Shown in pieces: positions 1,336 through 10,453 of a stretch of 64,000 nt of DNA. Numbering within the stretch: position 1 is the stretch's first letter; the number at the start of each line of letters is the position of its first letter. Under the pieces are notes generated by a model, which was given only the letters and a program-made list of their open reading frames with translations, had not been told where the DNA came from and made no database searches. Made by a program: the position numbers and the translations under genes. The DNA lies in contig JAJFFS010000012.1 of assembly GCA_021776515.1 (NCBI GenBank), positions 106,487-170,486 on the forward strand. The letters are read 5' to 3'. The stretch is from Robiginitomaculum sp. GTDB taxonomy: Bacteria; Pseudomonadota; Alphaproteobacteria; Caulobacterales; Maricaulaceae.

Positions 1336-3444
1336 TCACTTTTTTACAAATCTCACCTTTCGAACACGCACCGCTAGGTCTCGAAAATCATCGGAGCCCT
1401 GGGTGGAGGGGGAGATTGTTTCAGGAAAGTTGAATGACAGTGTAAGTCCATCTTTGATGTCTGCAGATGTGATGTGAGCCTGGCTCGTAATCAAAAGAGG
1501 GTAATGAAGATTTGTTTTATCCAGTAGAGTTGCCAAAGGAGTCCATTGACTTGCATATGTTTTATTCAATAATTTTGCCAAGGGTGCCCACTGACTTGCA
1601 AGTGCTCCTTGCCACTTAAGGCTCAATGGTTTGTCGTTAAGGGAAATTTTCATTCCCCGCACAATATCTGGTGACATAGCGTCAACCACATCGACTTCCA
1701 GCCGATAATCCCCTTCGGCAATCTTATCTATGCGCAGTGCGCTTTGCATTTCTGGGCCGGCCCAGCGGCCATCATGCTCCGCATAATGCCAATTATCTCC
1801 ATCTACGAATTGCCGCAGATCAATAATTTTTTCAATTTTTACGTTAGCTTTATCATCTTCGCTATCGGTTTCCTGCTCATCCTCACGCTTTGTCGCCTCC
1901 TGGTATTTTTGGAAATACAGCTCCAGCTCTTCCTGAACCTGGTGCAATTGTAATAACTGTAATTCACTTTCCTGGGCCGTTTCATCAAGCTTGGCCTCAA
2001 GGCCTTTCACTTTCTTGGTATTTGCCTTGTGCTTGCCAACTTCAGCTTCTAATGATTTCAATTGTCCCTTGAATGCACCATTTTCTTTTCCCAGCTGTTC
2101 GCTTTTCTGGGCGGTTTCATCAAGCTTGGCTTCAAGGTCTTTAACTTTCTCGGTATTGGCCTTGTGCTTGCCAACTTCAGCTTCTAATGATTTCAATCGA
2201 CCCTTGAATACATCACTTTCTTTTTCCAGCTGTTCACGCTGCTTGGTCAGAGATCCGATTTTTGCTTGTAGTTCATTTTGAGAGTTTTCATTTTTCTGTA
2301 GTTTTATAAAAGTTTGTTCCAACTCTTCTTGAACTTGATGAAGCTGAAGAGTGAGCAGTTTGCCTTCCTCTTTTTGTTCATCCCCCTCGGCTATACTTTT
2401 CTCTAATTCCTGCTTTAGTTTTTCGTTTTTTTGCTTTTGTTCTTTCAGTGTCTTTTCAAGTTCATCAATCTGTTTCTTAGACATTTTTGATGCCTCTTCA
2501 GATTCTTTTTGCATTTGGTCGATTTGAGAGAGCAGTAAGTCGTTTTCCTTTTTTTGCTCTTCACGTTCCGTTTCTAGCTGGGATAGTTCATTTTCTTTTT
2601 GTTCGCCCTGCTTCTTCAATTCATTGAAATGTTCCCAGGATTTAAGCGCAAGCTCTAGTGGATCCAGCTTTTCACAATCATCCTGAGGTCCAAGAATATT
2701 GTGCCGGGAACTTGCACCAGAATCGCTAGTTTCGGATTGGATATAGTCCCCCGGTAAGTCGGCGGCGCTTTCTAATTCCTGATAAAGCGCGTAGGCATCA
2801 ACCGCATCTTCGACAAGCATCGGTGCAATTAAGTCGTGGATCGGGTCTCTTTTTGGAATAGCCACTGCATTATTTTTTATATCGATCAGGTCAGCGCCCA
2901 ACTGATCCCGGCTATAGTTGACAAAAAGGCTGGCGTCTCTGGAAAGAAAGTCAGAATTAAGCAGAATGCACCGCTCTTTATTTTTAAAATAAAACCGAAT
3001 TAACTCGGCATTGATTTTCTGCCAATCAGAAAGCGCCTGCTCCACATTTTTTGTGGAAAGCTCTCCCTCATTAGCCATTTCCGCTACAGCTTGATCGGGG
3101 GATGAATAGACCAGAACAAATTTGATTTGTGGATCAAAATCCCGCCAGTGTTCAAGCATATAAACCAGATTTGGATCAGCCCAGCCCCAATCAGACTCGG
3201 ATAAATTAGCCAGCATTAAATCTGTTGACAGTGCTTGCCAAACCTTGCCAGGCTCCACCTGATCAATCGAGACTAATTCATTCTTATCAAGCCCATAGGC
3301 GGAACATATACCGCTACTTATGTCTGTTGGTGAATAGTCTTCCCTTTTTGAGGGTTTGGCGCGTGCAAGCCCCGCTTTGATTAAAAAATCATAGGCTAGC
3401 TGATACCCTGAATTTTGCACCCCGCATACTAGAACAACTGCCAC
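1336..3444 (-). CDS. Sulfotransferase-like N-terminus, long coiled coil and C-terminal beta-type domain; 702 aa
   Basis: Intact ORF; N-terminus MAVVLVCGVQNSGYQLAYDFL resembles a nucleotide/PAPS-type loop; E/K/Q-rich coiled coil; C-terminal NWHYAEHDGRWAGPEMQSALRI motif. Confidence 0.65.
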   Translation of the reverse strand: MAVVLVCGVQNSGYQLAYDFLIKAGLARAKPSKREDYSPTDISSGICSAYGLDKNELVSIDQVEPGKVWQALSTDLMLANLSESDWGWADPNLVYMLEHWRDFDPQIKFVLVYSSPDQAVAEMANEGELSTKNVEQALSDWQKINAELIRFYFKNKERCILLNSDFLSRDASLFVNYSRDQLGADLIDIKNNAVAIPKRDPIHDLIAPMLVEDAVDAYALYQELESAADLPGDYIQSETSDSGASSRHNILGPQDDCEKLDPLELALKSWEHFNELKKQGEQKENELSQLETEREEQKKENDLLLSQIDQMQKESEEASKMSKKQIDELEKTLKEQKQKNEKLKQELEKSIAEGDEQKEEGKLLTLQLHQVQEELEQTFIKLQKNENSQNELQAKIGSLTKQREQLEKESDVFKGRLKSLEAEVGKHKANTEKVKDLEAKLDETAQKSEQLGKENGAFKGQLKSLEAEVGKHKANTKKVKGLEAKLDETAQESELQLLQLHQVQEELELYFQKYQEATKREDEQETDSEDDKANVKIEKIIDLRQFVDGDNWHYAEHDGRWAGPEMQSALRIDKIAEGDYRLEVDVVDAMSPDIVRGMKISLNDKPLSLKWQGALASQWAPLAKLLNKTYASQWTPLATLLDKTNLHYPLLITSQAHITSADIKDGLTLSFNFPETISPSTQGSDDFRDLAVRVRKVRFVKK
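1960..2230 (-). repeat. 135-bp (45-aa) tandem duplication inside the coiled coil
   Basis: ctgggc(c/g)gtttcatcaagcttggc(c/t)tcaagg... at 1972 and again at 2107; protein repeat FKG(R/Q)LKSLEAEVGKHKANT(E/K)KVK(D/G)LEAKLDETAQ. Confidence 0.8.
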
Positions 3445-3880: not shown

Positions 3881-3990
3881 GTAAAAAGCCCCCCGATGTT
3901 TCCACCGAGGGGCTATTTTTTGGACTTGTTCTTTGCAGAACGAATTCCTTGTTAACGGAAAGCCCACGTTTTCTGATCAGCTATAATCAG
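3881..3990 (-). ncRNA. tracrRNA of the type II-C CRISPR system
   Basis: Minus strand: CTGATTATAGCTGATCAGAAAACGTGGGCTTTCCGTTAACAAGGAATTCGTTCTGCAAAGAACAAGTCCAAAAAATAGCCCCTCGGTGGAAACATCGGGGGGCTTTTTAC. Anti-repeat (3951-3986) complementary to the repeat with a small internal bulge; hairpin GTTCT-GCAA-AGAAC; 12-bp terminator stem with GAAA loop and U-tract. Confidence 0.9.
3883..3917 (-). terminator. Rho-independent terminator of tracrRNA
   Basis: AGCCCCTCGGTG-GAAA-CATCGGGGGGCT followed by TTTTT on the minus strand. Confidence 0.85.
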
Positions 3991-3996
3991 TATTCC

Positions 3997-4025
3997 TGTA
4001 TACCCCTATTATTTCTGCGGTTCAA
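3997..4025 (-). promoter_or_regulatory. Predicted sigma70-type promoter of tracrRNA
   Basis: Minus strand TTGAAC - 17 bp - TATACA, predicted TSS near 3990 just upstream of the anti-repeat. Confidence 0.65.
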
Positions 4026-4066
4026 GTGCTTTAATCAATTTATGGTTGAGAAACAGGAGGTTTGTC

Positions 4067-7000
4067 ATGAAATGGCGACTTGGGTTGGATGTGGGGACAA
4101 ATTCACTGGGCTGGGTGGTTTATGAAATTATTGATGGACACGATGGTCACGGTAATTTTTTAGGAAAACCAAGGCGTTTGGTCGAAAGCGGCGTGCGGAT
4201 ATTCTCGGATAGCCGTTCAAAAAAAGCAAAAACAAGATATGAATCTCTGGCAATTCCCCGACGAGGTGCACGCGGGGCACGGCGCAATCGTGACCGCTAT
4301 TTGCGCCGCCGGGCCGAATTTATGGATCGGCTGGTTGAATATGGCCTGATGCCAGAAGATAAAACCGCCCGCAAAGCGCTTGAAACGCTAGACCCGTGGG
4401 CATTGCGGGTGCGCGGGCTGGACGAAGAGCTTTCCTTGCATGAACTGGGCCGGGCCTTGTTTCATTTGCAACAAAGGCGGGGGTTTAAATCCAACCGCAA
4501 AACCGACAAGGGCGATAAGGACACGGGCGCGATCAAGGATGCGACCAACAAACTTATTGCTGATATGAAGAAACAAAGTGCCCGAACCGTAGGTGAATTT
4601 CTGGCCCGCGACCGCGTGGATGACCCGAAAATGGCGGCGGTTAAACAGGTGCGCGCCCGCCCGACATCGGTCAAAAACAAAAACACTTATGACTTTTATC
4701 CCACCCGTAAAATGATCGAAGAGGAATTTAATGCGCTATGGGACAAACAAAAAGAATTTCATGGCGATGCGTTAAGCCAAAAGGCAAAAAAGGCACTGGG
4801 TGATAGGGATACCGGCACCTTGTTTTTTCAACGGCCGTTAAAGCCGCAACCGGTGGGCAAATGCACCCTCGACCCGGATCAGCAACGCGCACCCAAAGCC
4901 CTGCCCTCGGTGCAGGCTTTGCGTATTTATCAGGAGGTCAACCATTTGCGCCTGCGTCTGCCGGGGCAGGCAGAGCGCCCGCTTACCGTGGAGGAACGCA
5001 ATAAAATTGCCGATAAACTCCTGAGTGTTGGTAAATTGAGCTTTGATTCCATGCGCCATCTCATCAAACATCCAGGGGTGATTTTTAGCCACGAAAGCAA
5101 AAAACGCAAACATCTCGATGGCGACAAGACCGCCGCGATATTGGCACAAAAACCCAGCGCCAAGGTCAGCGGCCGCTGGGGGCCGCAATGGCGCGATCTG
5201 CCACGCGAGCAACAAGATGCCATTGTCGAGATATTGATAGGCATGGAACCGGCGTATTCCAACGATAAACCCAATCCGGCGTTTGAACCTTTGGCACAAG
5301 GCATTGCGGCGACATTGGATATGCCGGTTGAACGGGCCAAAAAACTGCTTTCTGCCAATGATGAAAAAGCCATCATTGATTGGCTGGTACAAGATTTTGG
5401 CTTTGACGAAACCCGTGCTGCCAGCATTGCCAATGTCTCTTTACCAGACGGGCATGGGGGTTTGGGCCGCGCCGTCACCGCAAAAGTGCTGCCATGGTTG
5501 ATGAGCGATGCGCAAAATATCGACGATCCGGACCCGAAAAAAGAGGCATTGATCTCGGCCCCCTTCACCTATGACCAATCGGTGCGTTTGGGCGGCTATG
5601 ACAGCCATTCTTCTTTTGATGATGGCGAGGTGTTTGATCAATTGCCCTATTATGGCGAGGTTTTAGGGCGTTCGGTGGCTTTTGGTACGGGCGAGCCCGA
5701 TGACATCATCGAAAAACGCATTGGCAAATTGGCCAACCCGACCGTGCATGTGGCGATGAACCAGATCAGAAAAGTCGTCAATTCATTGGCCAAACGATAC
5801 GGCACGCCAACGGAAATTGTGGTGGAGATTGCCCGTGACTTGCCCCTGTCGGCGAAGGGCAAAAAAGATCTGGAAAAACTGCAAAGCGACAATCAAAAAA
5901 CCAATGAGCGCCGCGCCAAGGAGTTGGAAAATCACAACCAGACCAACACCTATGATAACCGCATGCGTATGCGCCTGTGGGAGGAGCTAAACGAGAATGA
6001 GCCGCACAATCGCTGTTGCGTCTATACCGGCGAGCAAATTGGCATAGAGCGTTTGTTTTCTGCGGAAGTCGAGATCGAACATATCTTGCCGCGTTCAAAA
6101 ACACTGGACGACAGCTTTTCCAACAAAACCCTCTCTATGCGTGAGGCCAATCGCCTGAAAAAACAGGACACGCCATTTGAAGCCTTTGGACTGGATCAGC
6201 ACGCACCTAAATACAAGTGGGACGCCATATCCCAACGCGCCGATAATTTACCCAATAACAAATCATGGCGTTTTGGCCCCGACGCTATGGAGCGTTATGA
6301 GGATGAGGAAAAAGGCTTTCTGGCGCGTCAACTTGGCGACACCCGCTATATTGCCCGCCTCACCCGCGAATATATGAGCAAAATGGCGGGGCGCGGCCAT
6401 GTCTGGGTGGTTACGGGGCAGATGACCTCTGATTTGCGCCATGCCTGGGGGTTAAACTCGGTATTGGCCGGACATAACCGCATGGAGTCCGAGGCCGAAG
6501 ACGTCAAGAAAAACCGCAACGACCACCGCCACCACGCGCTGGACGCGGTGGTGATTGGTTTGATTGACCGCGCATTATTGCAAAAAGTTGCCACTGCTGC
6601 CGGGCGGGCAGAACAGCGCTTTAGTCGCAATTGGGCCAAAGACTGGCCAGATCCATGGACCGGCTTTCGTGATGATGTGATCCGTTCCATGGAGAAAATC
6701 ACGATTTCCCACAAGGCCGATCACGGGGTGGAGGGTGAACTGCACGAAGGTACCAATTATGGCGTTGTCGCCGATCCGGTAACCGGCGAGCCACGTTTGG
6801 CGTCCCGCAAGGCACTAACCGCCCTGACCGAGCCGGAAATGACCCGTATTGGTGATCTGAAAATTCGCGCCGAATTGGAAGAAAGAATGCGCGACATAGA
6901 CGATCAGGGCCTGCCTAACAAAGACCGCACCAAAGAAATTATCGCCATGCTGGCCGAATATGGCAAGGAGACTAGCGTGCGCCGGGTGCGGGTGCACAAG

Positions 7001-7468
7001 GTGCAGGCCGATTATGAAACCATCCGCCATAATGGCCATCAAAAAGCGGTTATCCCCGGCGAGAATTATTGCGTTGATCTGGTGCAAACCACCAATGGAA
7101 AATGGCACGGGGTCGGGGTCACCCGCTTTGCCGCCAACCGACAAAAACGCCTTGGGGCGACAACGCCGTTATGGAAACAACAATACCCGGACGCACAACA
7201 CATTATGCGGGTGCGCAAGGGCGACCTTCTGATGTTGGAAAAAGATGGCCGCGAGCAGGTGATGGTTGTTGTACAATTGCATTCAAGTGCTAATCGGTTT
7301 TTCTTGGTGGGCCATACCGAAGCAGGCACGTTGAATGATCGCCATAAAGATAAGGATGATTTATTTAGGTGGGATATGGCCTCTTTTAGCAAACTCAAAG
7401 ACCGCAAGGCTCGTCTTGTCTATGTCGACCCGGCGGGCAAAGTGCACGATCCGGGGCCGCCATCATGA
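4067..7468 (+). CDS. cas9: Type II-C CRISPR-associated endonuclease Cas9 (1133 aa)
   Basis: RuvC-I RLGLDVGTNSLGW; Arg-rich bridge helix RRGARGARRNRDRYLRRR; RuvC-II IVVEIARDL; HNH VEIEHILPRSKTLDDSFSNKTL; RuvC-III HHALDAVVIGL; AGGAGG 6 nt upstream of ATG at 4067 (the ORF track starts upstream at 4046). Confidence 0.97.
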   Translation: MKWRLGLDVGTNSLGWVVYEIIDGHDGHGNFLGKPRRLVESGVRIFSDSRSKKAKTRYESLAIPRRGARGARRNRDRYLRRRAEFMDRLVEYGLMPEDKTARKALETLDPWALRVRGLDEELSLHELGRALFHLQQRRGFKSNRKTDKGDKDTGAIKDATNKLIADMKKQSARTVGEFLARDRVDDPKMAAVKQVRARPTSVKNKNTYDFYPTRKMIEEEFNALWDKQKEFHGDALSQKAKKALGDRDTGTLFFQRPLKPQPVGKCTLDPDQQRAPKALPSVQALRIYQEVNHLRLRLPGQAERPLTVEERNKIADKLLSVGKLSFDSMRHLIKHPGVIFSHESKKRKHLDGDKTAAILAQKPSAKVSGRWGPQWRDLPREQQDAIVEILIGMEPAYSNDKPNPAFEPLAQGIAATLDMPVERAKKLLSANDEKAIIDWLVQDFGFDETRAASIANVSLPDGHGGLGRAVTAKVLPWLMSDAQNIDDPDPKKEALISAPFTYDQSVRLGGYDSHSSFDDGEVFDQLPYYGEVLGRSVAFGTGEPDDIIEKRIGKLANPTVHVAMNQIRKVVNSLAKRYGTPTEIVVEIARDLPLSAKGKKDLEKLQSDNQKTNERRAKELENHNQTNTYDNRMRMRLWEELNENEPHNRCCVYTGEQIGIERLFSAEVEIEHILPRSKTLDDSFSNKTLSMREANRLKKQDTPFEAFGLDQHAPKYKWDAISQRADNLPNNKSWRFGPDAMERYEDEEKGFLARQLGDTRYIARLTREYMSKMAGRGHVWVVTGQMTSDLRHAWGLNSVLAGHNRMESEAEDVKKNRNDHRHHALDAVVIGLIDRALLQKVATAAGRAEQRFSRNWAKDWPDPWTGFRDDVIRSMEKITISHKADHGVEGELHEGTNYGVVADPVTGEPRLASRKALTALTEPEMTRIGDLKIRAELEERMRDIDDQGLPNKDRTKEIIAMLAEYGKETSVRRVRVHKVQADYETIRHNGHQKAVIPGENYCVDLVQTTNGKWHGVGVTRFAANRQKRLGATTPLWKQQYPDAQHIMRVRKGDLLMLEKDGREQVMVVVQLHSSANRFFLVGHTEAGTLNDRHKDKDDLFRWDMASFSKLKDRKARLVYVDPAGKVHDPGPPS

Positions 7469-8373
7469 TCGGGCGGTTTGTGGACATTGTCGATGACGGG
7501 GTGCATTTATCCGTCACGCGGGGGTTTTTGAAAGTCAGCAAAGCCCACGAAGAAATTGGCCGTGTGGCGCTGGACGATATTGCCGCTTTGATCATCCACG
7601 CCCATGGGGCAACGTTTAGCGCCAATCTGGTCACCCGGCTGTCTGCGCGCGGCGCGCCGATTGTCATGTGCGCCGCCAATCACACGCCCATTGCCTTTGT
7701 TTTGCCAATGGATGGGCATTATGAGCAGGGCGTACGTATGGGCGCGCAAGCCAAGGCTACACCGCGCAAATGCGATGCCTTGTGGCGCGACCTCATCAAG
7801 GCAAAAATTATTGCGCAAGGCGATGTTCTTGATGCGTGCGGCTTGCCCGGGCAAGGGGTTCGCCATTTGCACCGGGCGGTCAAGGCGGGCGACCCGGCCA
7901 ATGTGGAGGCGCAAGCGGCGCGGCGGTATTGGTCGTTAATGTTGGGCAAGGGTTTTCGTCGGGATCGGGACATTGGCGGCGCCAATGCCTTTTTAAACTA
8001 TGGCTATACGGTGTTGCGGGCCGCCACGGCGCGCTCCATCCTTGGGGCTGGTTTGCACCCTTCGCTTTCGCTCCATCATATTAGTCGTGGTGCGGCCCTG
8101 CGGCTGGCCGATGATTTGATGGAACCGTTTCGCCCTTATGTTGATTTGGTGGTGCGCCGCCTTGGGCCCAAAGAAGGTGCCGAACTGGACCGCGAAGCCA
8201 AGGCGGCTTTGGCTGCCATTACTCTTTTTGACCTGACCGGGCCCAAGGGTGCCTCGCCGATACAAACCTGTCTGGATCGTTTGGCGGTTTCGTTGGCACA
8301 GGTATTTTTAGGCGAAATAAAAAAACTGGAACTGCCCGGGCCGCCTTTGCCATTGGGGGTCGCGGCATCATGA
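7465..8373 (+). CDS. cas1: Type II CRISPR-associated endonuclease Cas1
   Basis: 302 aa, type II Cas1-like (VDIVDDGVHLSVTRGFLKVS...GAGLHPSLSLHH...NYGYTVLRA); ATGA overlap with cas9. Confidence 0.95.
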   Translation: MIGRFVDIVDDGVHLSVTRGFLKVSKAHEEIGRVALDDIAALIIHAHGATFSANLVTRLSARGAPIVMCAANHTPIAFVLPMDGHYEQGVRMGAQAKATPRKCDALWRDLIKAKIIAQGDVLDACGLPGQGVRHLHRAVKAGDPANVEAQAARRYWSLMLGKGFRRDRDIGGANAFLNYGYTVLRAATARSILGAGLHPSLSLHHISRGAALRLADDLMEPFRPYVDLVVRRLGPKEGAELDREAKAALAAITLFDLTGPKGASPIQTCLDRLAVSLAQVFLGEIKKLELPGPPLPLGVAAS

Positions 8374-8702
8374 AAACATTAAGTGGGTATAGAATTATGT
8401 GGATGATCGTTTTTTTTGATTTACCTGTGGTGGACCCGGTCGAACGCAAACAGGCCAGCAAGTTTCGATTGTTTTTAAAAGACCTTGGTTTTGAAATGGC
8501 GCAGTTTTCCGTTTATATTCGCCACACCCCCGGCAAGGATGCGGTAGAGGCTTATCGACGAAAAATTGAATCGGCCTTGCCCTCCCAAGGCAAGGTTGAT
8601 ATTTTACAATTTACCGACAAGCAGTATGAGAATATTGTCAGCTTTCGAGGAACAAAGCGTGATTCACCGAATCAAAATCCGGAACAATTATTGCTTTTTT
8701 AG
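8370..8702 (+). CDS. cas2: CRISPR-associated endoribonuclease Cas2
   Basis: 110 aa, MWMIVFFDLPVVDPVERKQASKFRLFLKDLGFEMAQFSVYIR; ATGA overlap with cas1. Confidence 0.95.
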   Translation: MKTLSGYRIMWMIVFFDLPVVDPVERKQASKFRLFLKDLGFEMAQFSVYIRHTPGKDAVEAYRRKIESALPSQGKVDILQFTDKQYENIVSFRGTKRDSPNQNPEQLLLF

Positions 8703-8736
8703 CAAAAATGCGATCAATCATGTTCGTCGAAACAAC

Positions 8737-8762
8737 AAAAAAACCCTTGTTTTCAAGGGTTT
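8737..8762 (-). terminator. Rho-independent terminator at the cas2-proximal end of the array (minus-strand transcription)
   Basis: Minus strand AACCCTTG-AAAA-CAAGGGTT followed by TTTTT. Confidence 0.8.
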
Positions 8763-8774
8763 GATTGCAGGTCT

Positions 8775-9666
8775 GTTATAGCTGATTAGAAAACGTGGGC
8801 CAACCGCAACTCCGGCGTCTCGGACAAGTTCTTCAATCGCGTTATAGCTGATTAGAAAACGTGGGCCAACCGCAACCTCTCTTTTACAGACAGTAAACGC
8901 CTTTCCGTTATAGCTGATTAGAAAACGTGGGCCAACCGCAACGACCGCCAAGTCATCGAACGCGACAAGTAGTTATAGCTGATTAGAAAACGTGGGCCAA
9001 CCGCAACCATCTAGTACTCCAGATAGTAATCCAATATCGTTATAGCTGATTAGAAAACGTGGGCCAACCGCAACTCATCTCCGGCGATGCCACTGAATTG
9101 GGGGTTATAGCTGATTAGAAAACGTGGGCCAACCGCAACACAATGCCGCCAATGGTGCACTGGCCATTGGTTATAGCTGATTAGAAAACGTGGGCCAACC
9201 GCAACGGCTCCGTTTCCATCGAGGCAGACAACGCCGTTATAGCTGATTAGAAAACGTGGGCCAACCGCAACTGGCGGAAGCTTGTGGAGCAGATGCACCC
9301 TGTTATAGCTGATTAGAAAACGTGGGCCAACCGCAACTAGAGTTAGGTTAGAGGCGTTAAGACATCTGTTATAGCTGATTAGAAAACGTGGGCCAACCGC
9401 AACACCGAAGATATAGCTAAGAAATTCGGAGAGGTTATAGCTGATTAGAAAACGTGGGCCAACCGCAACGACAGTGACTTCCTATCTTGGTCGTCGTCCG
9501 TTATAGCTGATTAGAAAACGTGGGCCAACCGCAACGACAAGGCTGCTGAATTGTGGGCTGATTGGGTTATAGCTGATTAGAAAACGTGGGCCAACCGCAA
9601 CTTCATCCGGGCCTTGCTCATAGCTTGTATGTTATAGCTGATTAGAAAACGTAGCCCAACCGCAAC
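8775..9666 (-). CRISPR. CRISPR array: 14 repeats of 36 bp, 13 spacers of 29-31 bp; crRNA-sense repeat GTTGCGGTTGGCCCACGTTTTCTAATCAGCTATAAC
   Basis: Repeats start at 8775, 8841, 8907, 8972, 9039, 9104, 9170, 9236, 9302, 9368, 9434, 9500, 9566, 9631; the last repeat is degenerate (acgtAGCCcaac); strand set from tracrRNA pairing and terminator. Confidence 0.97.
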
Positions 9667-10453
9667 AAAAACGCTGTGCGGTATTCCCCAGGAAGACAAT
9701 GTGCACATTCACCAAATTCAGCTGGATCTCACTGATAAAGTTTCAATTGAAAATGCAGTTGCCAGTATTCTGGATGCCGAAGGCAGGATCGATGTCCTTG
9801 TCAATAATGCGGGTATTGTCAGAGGCAGTAATATTGAAGAAACCGACATGGATGCCGTTCGGGAAATGTTTGAAACCAACTTTTTCGGTACTGCCGAACT
9901 CATAAAGAACGTCGTACCAGGCATGCGCCAGCGCCGATCTGGGACCATTGTTAATGTAACCTCTATCGCCGGGCGGCTGGTTTCTGTGAGCGGAGGATAT
10001 TATGCGGCCTCGAAATATGCATTCGAGGCACTATCGGAATCCCTTACCATGCAGTTGGCACCGTTCGGTGTACGGGTGAAAATCATCGAGCCCGGGGCAA
10101 CAACCACATCCATGCTTTCAAATACGCAAAAGGCAACTCGCCCCGCCAACCCCAACTCCCCATACAAAACTCTGGCACGTCGTTTCGGGGCATATTTTGA
10201 TGCCCAGCTTAATCGTCCCAATGCCACGCCTCCCGATGCCGTAGCACAAGTTATTGAGAGGGCCATTGCCACCGATGACCCTAAATTGCGCTATGTTGTC
10301 GGCGATGATTCCGAAACCTTGCTGGCAGGGCGCCAAAGCATCACGGATGAGGATGCGGTGGCTTTCTGCCAGATCGAAGACGACGAAGAATACTATGACG
10401 CGATGCAAAAACTATATGGCCGTGACCTTTTCAGACGTCAAAACCTTTCTTGA
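9667..10453 (+). pseudogene. 5'-truncated short-chain dehydrogenase/reductase (SDR), N-terminal Rossmann motif missing
   Basis: Frame is open back to the last CRISPR repeat (..KTLCGIPQEDNVHIHQIQLDLTDKVSIENAV..LVNNAG...YYAASKYAFEAL); NNAG and YxxxK present, TGxxxGIG absent. Confidence 0.75.

Follow-up and report, generated by a model that had tools for sequence, protein, structure and literature searches.

In type II-C CRISPR-Cas systems, Cas1-Cas2 captures new spacers, RNase III matures the crRNA:tracrRNA duplex, and Cas9 cuts DNA next to a PAM. The solved II-C structures nearest by sequence to the Cas9 described here are those of ThermoCas9/GeoCas9 and NmeCas9. By description, the system can also be likened to EHCas9, a metagenomic clade IX II-C system related to Alphaproteobacteria that has been shown to function and characterized for guide design and PAM (NGG) (PMC10281378), and to the Sulfitobacter donghicola Cas9 cited in the same study. 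Our analysis of a 64,000-nucleotide stretch of DNA (the window) indicates that the locus near its start almost certainly encodes an alphaproteobacterial adaptive immune system, a CRISPR-Cas9 of subtype II-C that is complete and probably functional; the alphaproteobacterial host is indicated by an alpha_tmRNA match of 255 bits. Like EHCas9, the locus combines a cas9-cas1-cas2 order, 36-nt repeats, a small Cas9 with HNH and RuvC residues, and a tracrRNA of about 100 nt encoded upstream of cas9 and against the operon. In contrast, EHCas9 has 1070 aa and an Asp-His pair in its HNH domain, while the window Cas9 has 1133 aa and Glu-His. The features of the locus and its edge are as follows.

3881-3990, minus strand: tracrRNA gene, with anti-repeat (3987-3962), TAACAAG, nexus-like hairpin, and terminator (3914-3887) plus T-run; predicted start
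3997-4025, minus strand: putative, weak tracrRNA promoter, TTGAAC (4025-4020), 17-nt spacer, TATACA (4002-3997)
4067-7468, plus strand: cas9, type II-C, 1133 aa, from ATG 4067 to stop TGA 7466-7468
7465-8373, plus strand: cas1, type II (NMENI), 302 aa
8370-8702, plus strand: cas2, 110 aa
8741-8762, minus strand: 3' terminator of the array transcript, on the cas2 side
8775-9666, minus strand: CRISPR array of 14 repeats of 36 nt and 13 spacers of 29-31 nt
9631-9666, minus strand: first (oldest, "extra") repeat of the transcript, mutated from GGCCCACG to GGGCTACG
9668-10453, plus strand: short-chain dehydrogenase gene, matching PF00106 from profile position 46

The three cas genes are open reading frames free of stops and frameshifts, and both junctions, cas9/cas1 and cas1/cas2, are ATGA overlaps on the plus strand. 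An AGGAGG lies upstream of the cas9 start. Family assignments were made with NCBIfam models for Cas9 (TIGR01865, 628 bits against a cut-off of 100), Cas1 (TIGR03639, 201.5 bits against a cut-off of 120; PADLOC Cas1_II, E 9.9e-88), and Cas2 (TIGR01573, 60.3 bits; PADLOC Cas2_II, E 1.1e-40), and Pfam and PADLOC agreed with NCBIfam. Assignment to type II-D (Cas9d) was rejected, as the score of 147.5 bits falls below the NCBIfam cut-off of 375. Neither csn2 nor cas4 was found in the locus, where cas9, cas1, and cas2 are the only cas genes, and the next open reading frame past the array encodes the dehydrogenase rather than a further Cas protein. Subtype II-C is supported by this gene content, by the type II Cas1 and Cas2 models, by the array and tracrRNA gene that run against the operon, and by the sequence and fold neighbors of the Cas9.

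The repeat, in the crRNA sense, is GTTGCGGTTGGCCCACGTTTTCTAATCAGCTATAAC, and 13 of the 14 copies are identical; the last one (by coordinate) differs at 2 positions. No further copy with 3 or fewer mismatches was found elsewhere in the 2.57-Mb genome, leaving this array as the sole one. It is predicted from sequence to run against the cas operon, with its only mutated repeat transcribed first. Both changes affect the half of that repeat whose pairing adjoins the guide, and its predicted duplex with the tracrRNA drops from -49.2 to -42.5 kcal/mol. About 60% of II-C arrays are described as having a mutated first repeat, one possible means to curb spacer-less crRNAs, and the acquisition end in II-C is the last repeat (PMC12080349). 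The mutated oldest repeat is predicted to weaken the extraneous crRNA in the pattern described there, and from the II-C precedent, together with the position of this repeat at the far end, we infer that spacers are inserted on the cas2 side. Hairpins stand at the position matching the array terminator in two congeneric loci (L048 and L085), with stem sequences that differ from that of the window. The final bases of the repeat are TATAAC, preceded at a distance of 17 nt by TTGGCC, and a strict promoter scan gave no match there.

The dehydrogenase gene beyond the array is the boundary of the locus and lies outside the system. It lacks about the first 45 positions of its family, and its reading frame directly abuts the oldest repeat of the array, so that the edge of the locus coincides with a truncated gene; translation of the frames preceding the tracrRNA gene did not reveal the missing N-terminal part. 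On that side, the window also holds in-frame tandem repeats at 138-573, with a unit like SGELVLLIAGLGQFLNLC when read on the plus strand, and, at 1336-3444 on the minus strand, a 702-aa coiled-coil-like open reading frame with no Pfam match.

The tracrRNA is about 110 nt long and ends in a terminator of 12 pairs followed by a T-run. Its anti-repeat and the repeat agree at 24 of 25 positions, compared with at most 19 of 25 for the best match of any of 60 shuffled repeats over the whole window. Pairing between repeat and tracrRNA is predicted to span the whole repeat (-49.2 kcal/mol): a lower stem of 7 bp with a single-base bulge is followed by a 2x2 internal loop and then by a long upper stem. 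We compared this guide RNA layout across 14 related loci by eye on individual folds rather than by formal covariation. The lower stem, internal loop, upper stem, TAACAAG, nexus hairpin, and terminator-like hairpin are present in most of the 15 loci, although the repeat sequences differ. TAACAAG or a close variant is common to the related loci (the pattern was not found in L067), a short nexus hairpin occurs in most of the 14, and CACAAAAT in many. The nexus of the window is unusual, with an extra 5-bp hairpin and CAAAAAAT as its linker. This recurring layout fixes strand and extent. The promoters here are weak consensus matches: a stricter scan did not pick up TTGAAC-17-TATACA, and a similar TTGAAC-17-TATTGA stands at the corresponding place in the congener locus L048.

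The original prediction thus holds for the architecture of the locus. Its cas9-cas1-cas2 operon with ATGA overlaps on the plus strand was confirmed almost to the base, and the AGGAGG and the TGA stop bear out a Cas9 of 1133 aa that starts at a ribosome-binding-site-supported ATG. Its placement of a convergent array on the minus strand agrees with the 14 repeats and their minus-strand terminator, its minus-strand tracrRNA with the anti-repeat match and the 12-pair terminator, and its reading of the missing cas4 and csn2 as a fit to II-C with the three-gene locus next to a dehydrogenase. That all guide RNA parts could be read from the DNA is corroborated by 14 relatives, where the same elements (repeat, tracrRNA, nexus, and terminator) return and the pairing is conserved.

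The RuvC residues (D8, E587, H823, and D826) and the HNH residues (H672 and N695) of the Cas9 are present and aligned with those of relatives, as had been predicted. One minor detail needs correcting: a Glu (E671) serves as the first metal ligand of HNH, where NmeCas9 and SpCas9 have an Asp. Residues 388-424 form a 37-residue insertion in the helical lobe that is present in no more than 3 of 17 relatives. An AlphaFold model built from 18 sequences reached a pLDDT of 75.9 and a pTM of 0.50, and because of this pTM the relative positions of its domains are uncertain. NmeCas9 was the first fold match, and both NmeCas9 and GeoCas9 were matched over the length of the model. Among solved structures, NmeCas9, GeoCas9, and ThermoCas9 are the best sequence and fold matches; they share about 21% identity with the window Cas9 over the fold alignment, and its PAM-interacting end is not matched to theirs by sequence.

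Among 385 Alphaproteobacteria genomes searched, 61 had a Cas9 match. The best relatives over the protein were those of G206 (62% identical) and G327 (53%); identities of 40 to 50% were common, and the Cas9 of a member of the same genus, G386, was 50% identical. The plasmid Cas9 of Azospirillum thermophilum, annotated in its record as two overlapping open reading frames, is 42% identical. The cas gene order of the window is kept in most relatives, and the loci of G206, G327, G386, and A. thermophilum share with it the gene order, the repeat ends GTTGCGGTTGG...GCTA, and the tracrRNA architecture. Identity in the PAM-interacting end ranges from 64% in G206 down to 28 to 34% in G386, L054, and L066. 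A scan with the single Cas9 sequence returned two distant matches in the genome collection and none in the viral collection. In a Cas9 tree, which was built without sequences labeled by published clade, the window protein groups with Cas9s of several alphaproteobacterial families. The original prediction had left novelty to such a search and tree, and the nearest relative found is not near-identical. Given that relative at 62% and the related EHCas9 already characterized, the window protein is an unexceptional new ortholog within a known type of Cas9. A group that already has a characterized NGG member thereby gains another Cas9 of medium size, which would be useful only if its PAM were new or the enzyme strong.

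One member of the clade of the window Cas9 deserves separate mention. In L060 (G420:C17:8000-21000), a full-length open Cas9 (4353-7601, plus strand) carries Glu for the RuvC-I Asp and Tyr for the HNH His (ELNYILP). No cas1 or cas2 adjoins it; upstream (near 4259) lies a tracrRNA-like stretch, and downstream (about 7680-7810) are one or two degenerate repeats. Judged by these residues, it is a candidate naturally nuclease-dead Cas9, or else the locus may be decaying.

That the window holds a complete, compact type II-C locus, as originally predicted, is shown by its genes, catalytic residues, array, predicted pairing, terminators, and family membership; we infer expression, processing, cutting, and acquisition. 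Cas1-Cas2 would extend the array with new spacers next to cas2, crRNAs would be transcribed from the array on the minus strand, and each would base-pair along its entire repeat with the tracrRNA encoded upstream of cas9. RNase III would then trim the duplex, and the guided Cas9 would cut DNA with its HNH and RuvC domains next to a PAM, while the mutated first repeat may limit spacer-less crRNA. Weighing against a working system are the weak promoter matches, the spacers, none of which matched a target in the collections searched, and the Glu in place of Asp at E671.

Two departures from this scheme concern how its parts operate, and both appear very improbable, the first slightly more so. If crRNA and tracrRNA were both made from the plus strand, the anti-repeat would be complementary all the same, and a TATAAT lies at about 3982-3987 on the plus strand of the anti-repeat. 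However, anti-repeat, TAACAAG, nexus hairpin, and terminator follow in order only on the minus strand, in the window and in most relatives; the array ends with a terminator on that strand, and the published relative EHCas9 works with the corresponding polarity (PMC10281378). The same TATAAT was considered as a cas9 promoter and rejected; the anti-repeats of relatives do not keep it, and we therefore claim no cas9 promoter there. A II-C system with a nonstandard effector, acting in RNA targeting or regulation or as a nickase rather than by DNA double-strand cutting, could be read from E671 at the first HNH metal site and from the insertion in the helical lobe. The Glu is natural in the clade: about half of the close relatives have Glu at this site together with full HNH motifs, and RuvC and HNH are otherwise intact.

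It is less far-fetched, though still unlikely, that an intact sequence conceals an idle locus, one that is not expressed or has stopped acquiring spacers, as a fossil on the way to loss such as congeners display. Searches of the array against phage and plasmid collections found no protospacer from which to read a PAM, and an exact search of IMG/VR with PAM-side 20- to 22-mers of 7 of the 13 spacers gave no match. When all spacers were compared with 200 genomes of the order, nothing rose above chance level; two weak matches, one of 25/30 within a gene resembling that of an efflux-pump adaptor and one of 24/30, were rejected as protospacers. No self-targeting was found beyond the array itself. 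Just 4 of 18 congeneric genomes show a cas1 match, and the congener G589 has kept an array without its cas9 and most of its cas1. Against idleness stand the three open reading frames, the retained catalytic residues, the 13 identical repeats, and the preserved tracrRNA pairing, and we favor a working system.

Within the genus, cas1-cas2-repeat and cas9 have different histories. The G386 locus (L048) shares 33 of 36 repeat bases with the window, along with 73% identity in cas1 and 78% in cas2, while its Cas9 is 50% identical and the PAM-interacting end 34%; the corresponding Cas9 values for G206, from another family, are 62% and 64%. The Cas1 tree unites the window with G386 (100/99), and the Cas9 tree separates them. 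In AU tests, grouping the window with G386 was rejected for the N-part (p-AU 8e-4) and the C-part (2e-8) of Cas9, and grouping it with G206 was rejected for Cas1 (p-AU 9e-4), giving p < 0.001 in both directions; the tested clades were chosen after the identities had been seen, which makes these values somewhat flattering, but both directions still agree. In G589 (L085), nine copies of a repeat identical to that of the window accompany a cas2 product identical at 97 of 110 residues and a cas1 of which the final 93 codons are left; the expected cas9 site is taken up by a different II-C system with its own cas9-cas1-cas2-array.

L085 (G589:C52, 1-6911) runs from an orphan array with the exact repeat of the window through an intact cas2 and a cas1 remnant to the second II-C system, with a partial copy of the first repeat past the second array (at 6876). 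In L048 (G386:C25), the terminal repeat and about 100 bases of flank are present twice, at 9817 and 12242, bracketing three open reading frames, an arrangement that would fit the insertion or duplication of a segment at the old end of the array.

A 2013 survey found Cas9 and Cas1 trees to be largely in agreement (PMC3936727), to which the genus of the window is a fine-scale exception, based on few genomes that are all draft assemblies. Tentatively, and with somewhat more doubt than confidence, we suggest that the genus keeps its memory (cas1, cas2, and an array with nearly the same repeat) and exchanges its cas9, with a Cas9 from another lineage and a different PAM-interacting end in one species and a foreign II-C system in another. 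Because three sister species carry near-identical repeats, related Cas1-Cas2, and Cas9s of different descent, a change of effector and PAM without a change of memory becomes testable in II-C. If this reading is true, one kind of array would over time have worked with Cas9s that differ in PAM, which may offer an escape from phages that have lost a PAM.
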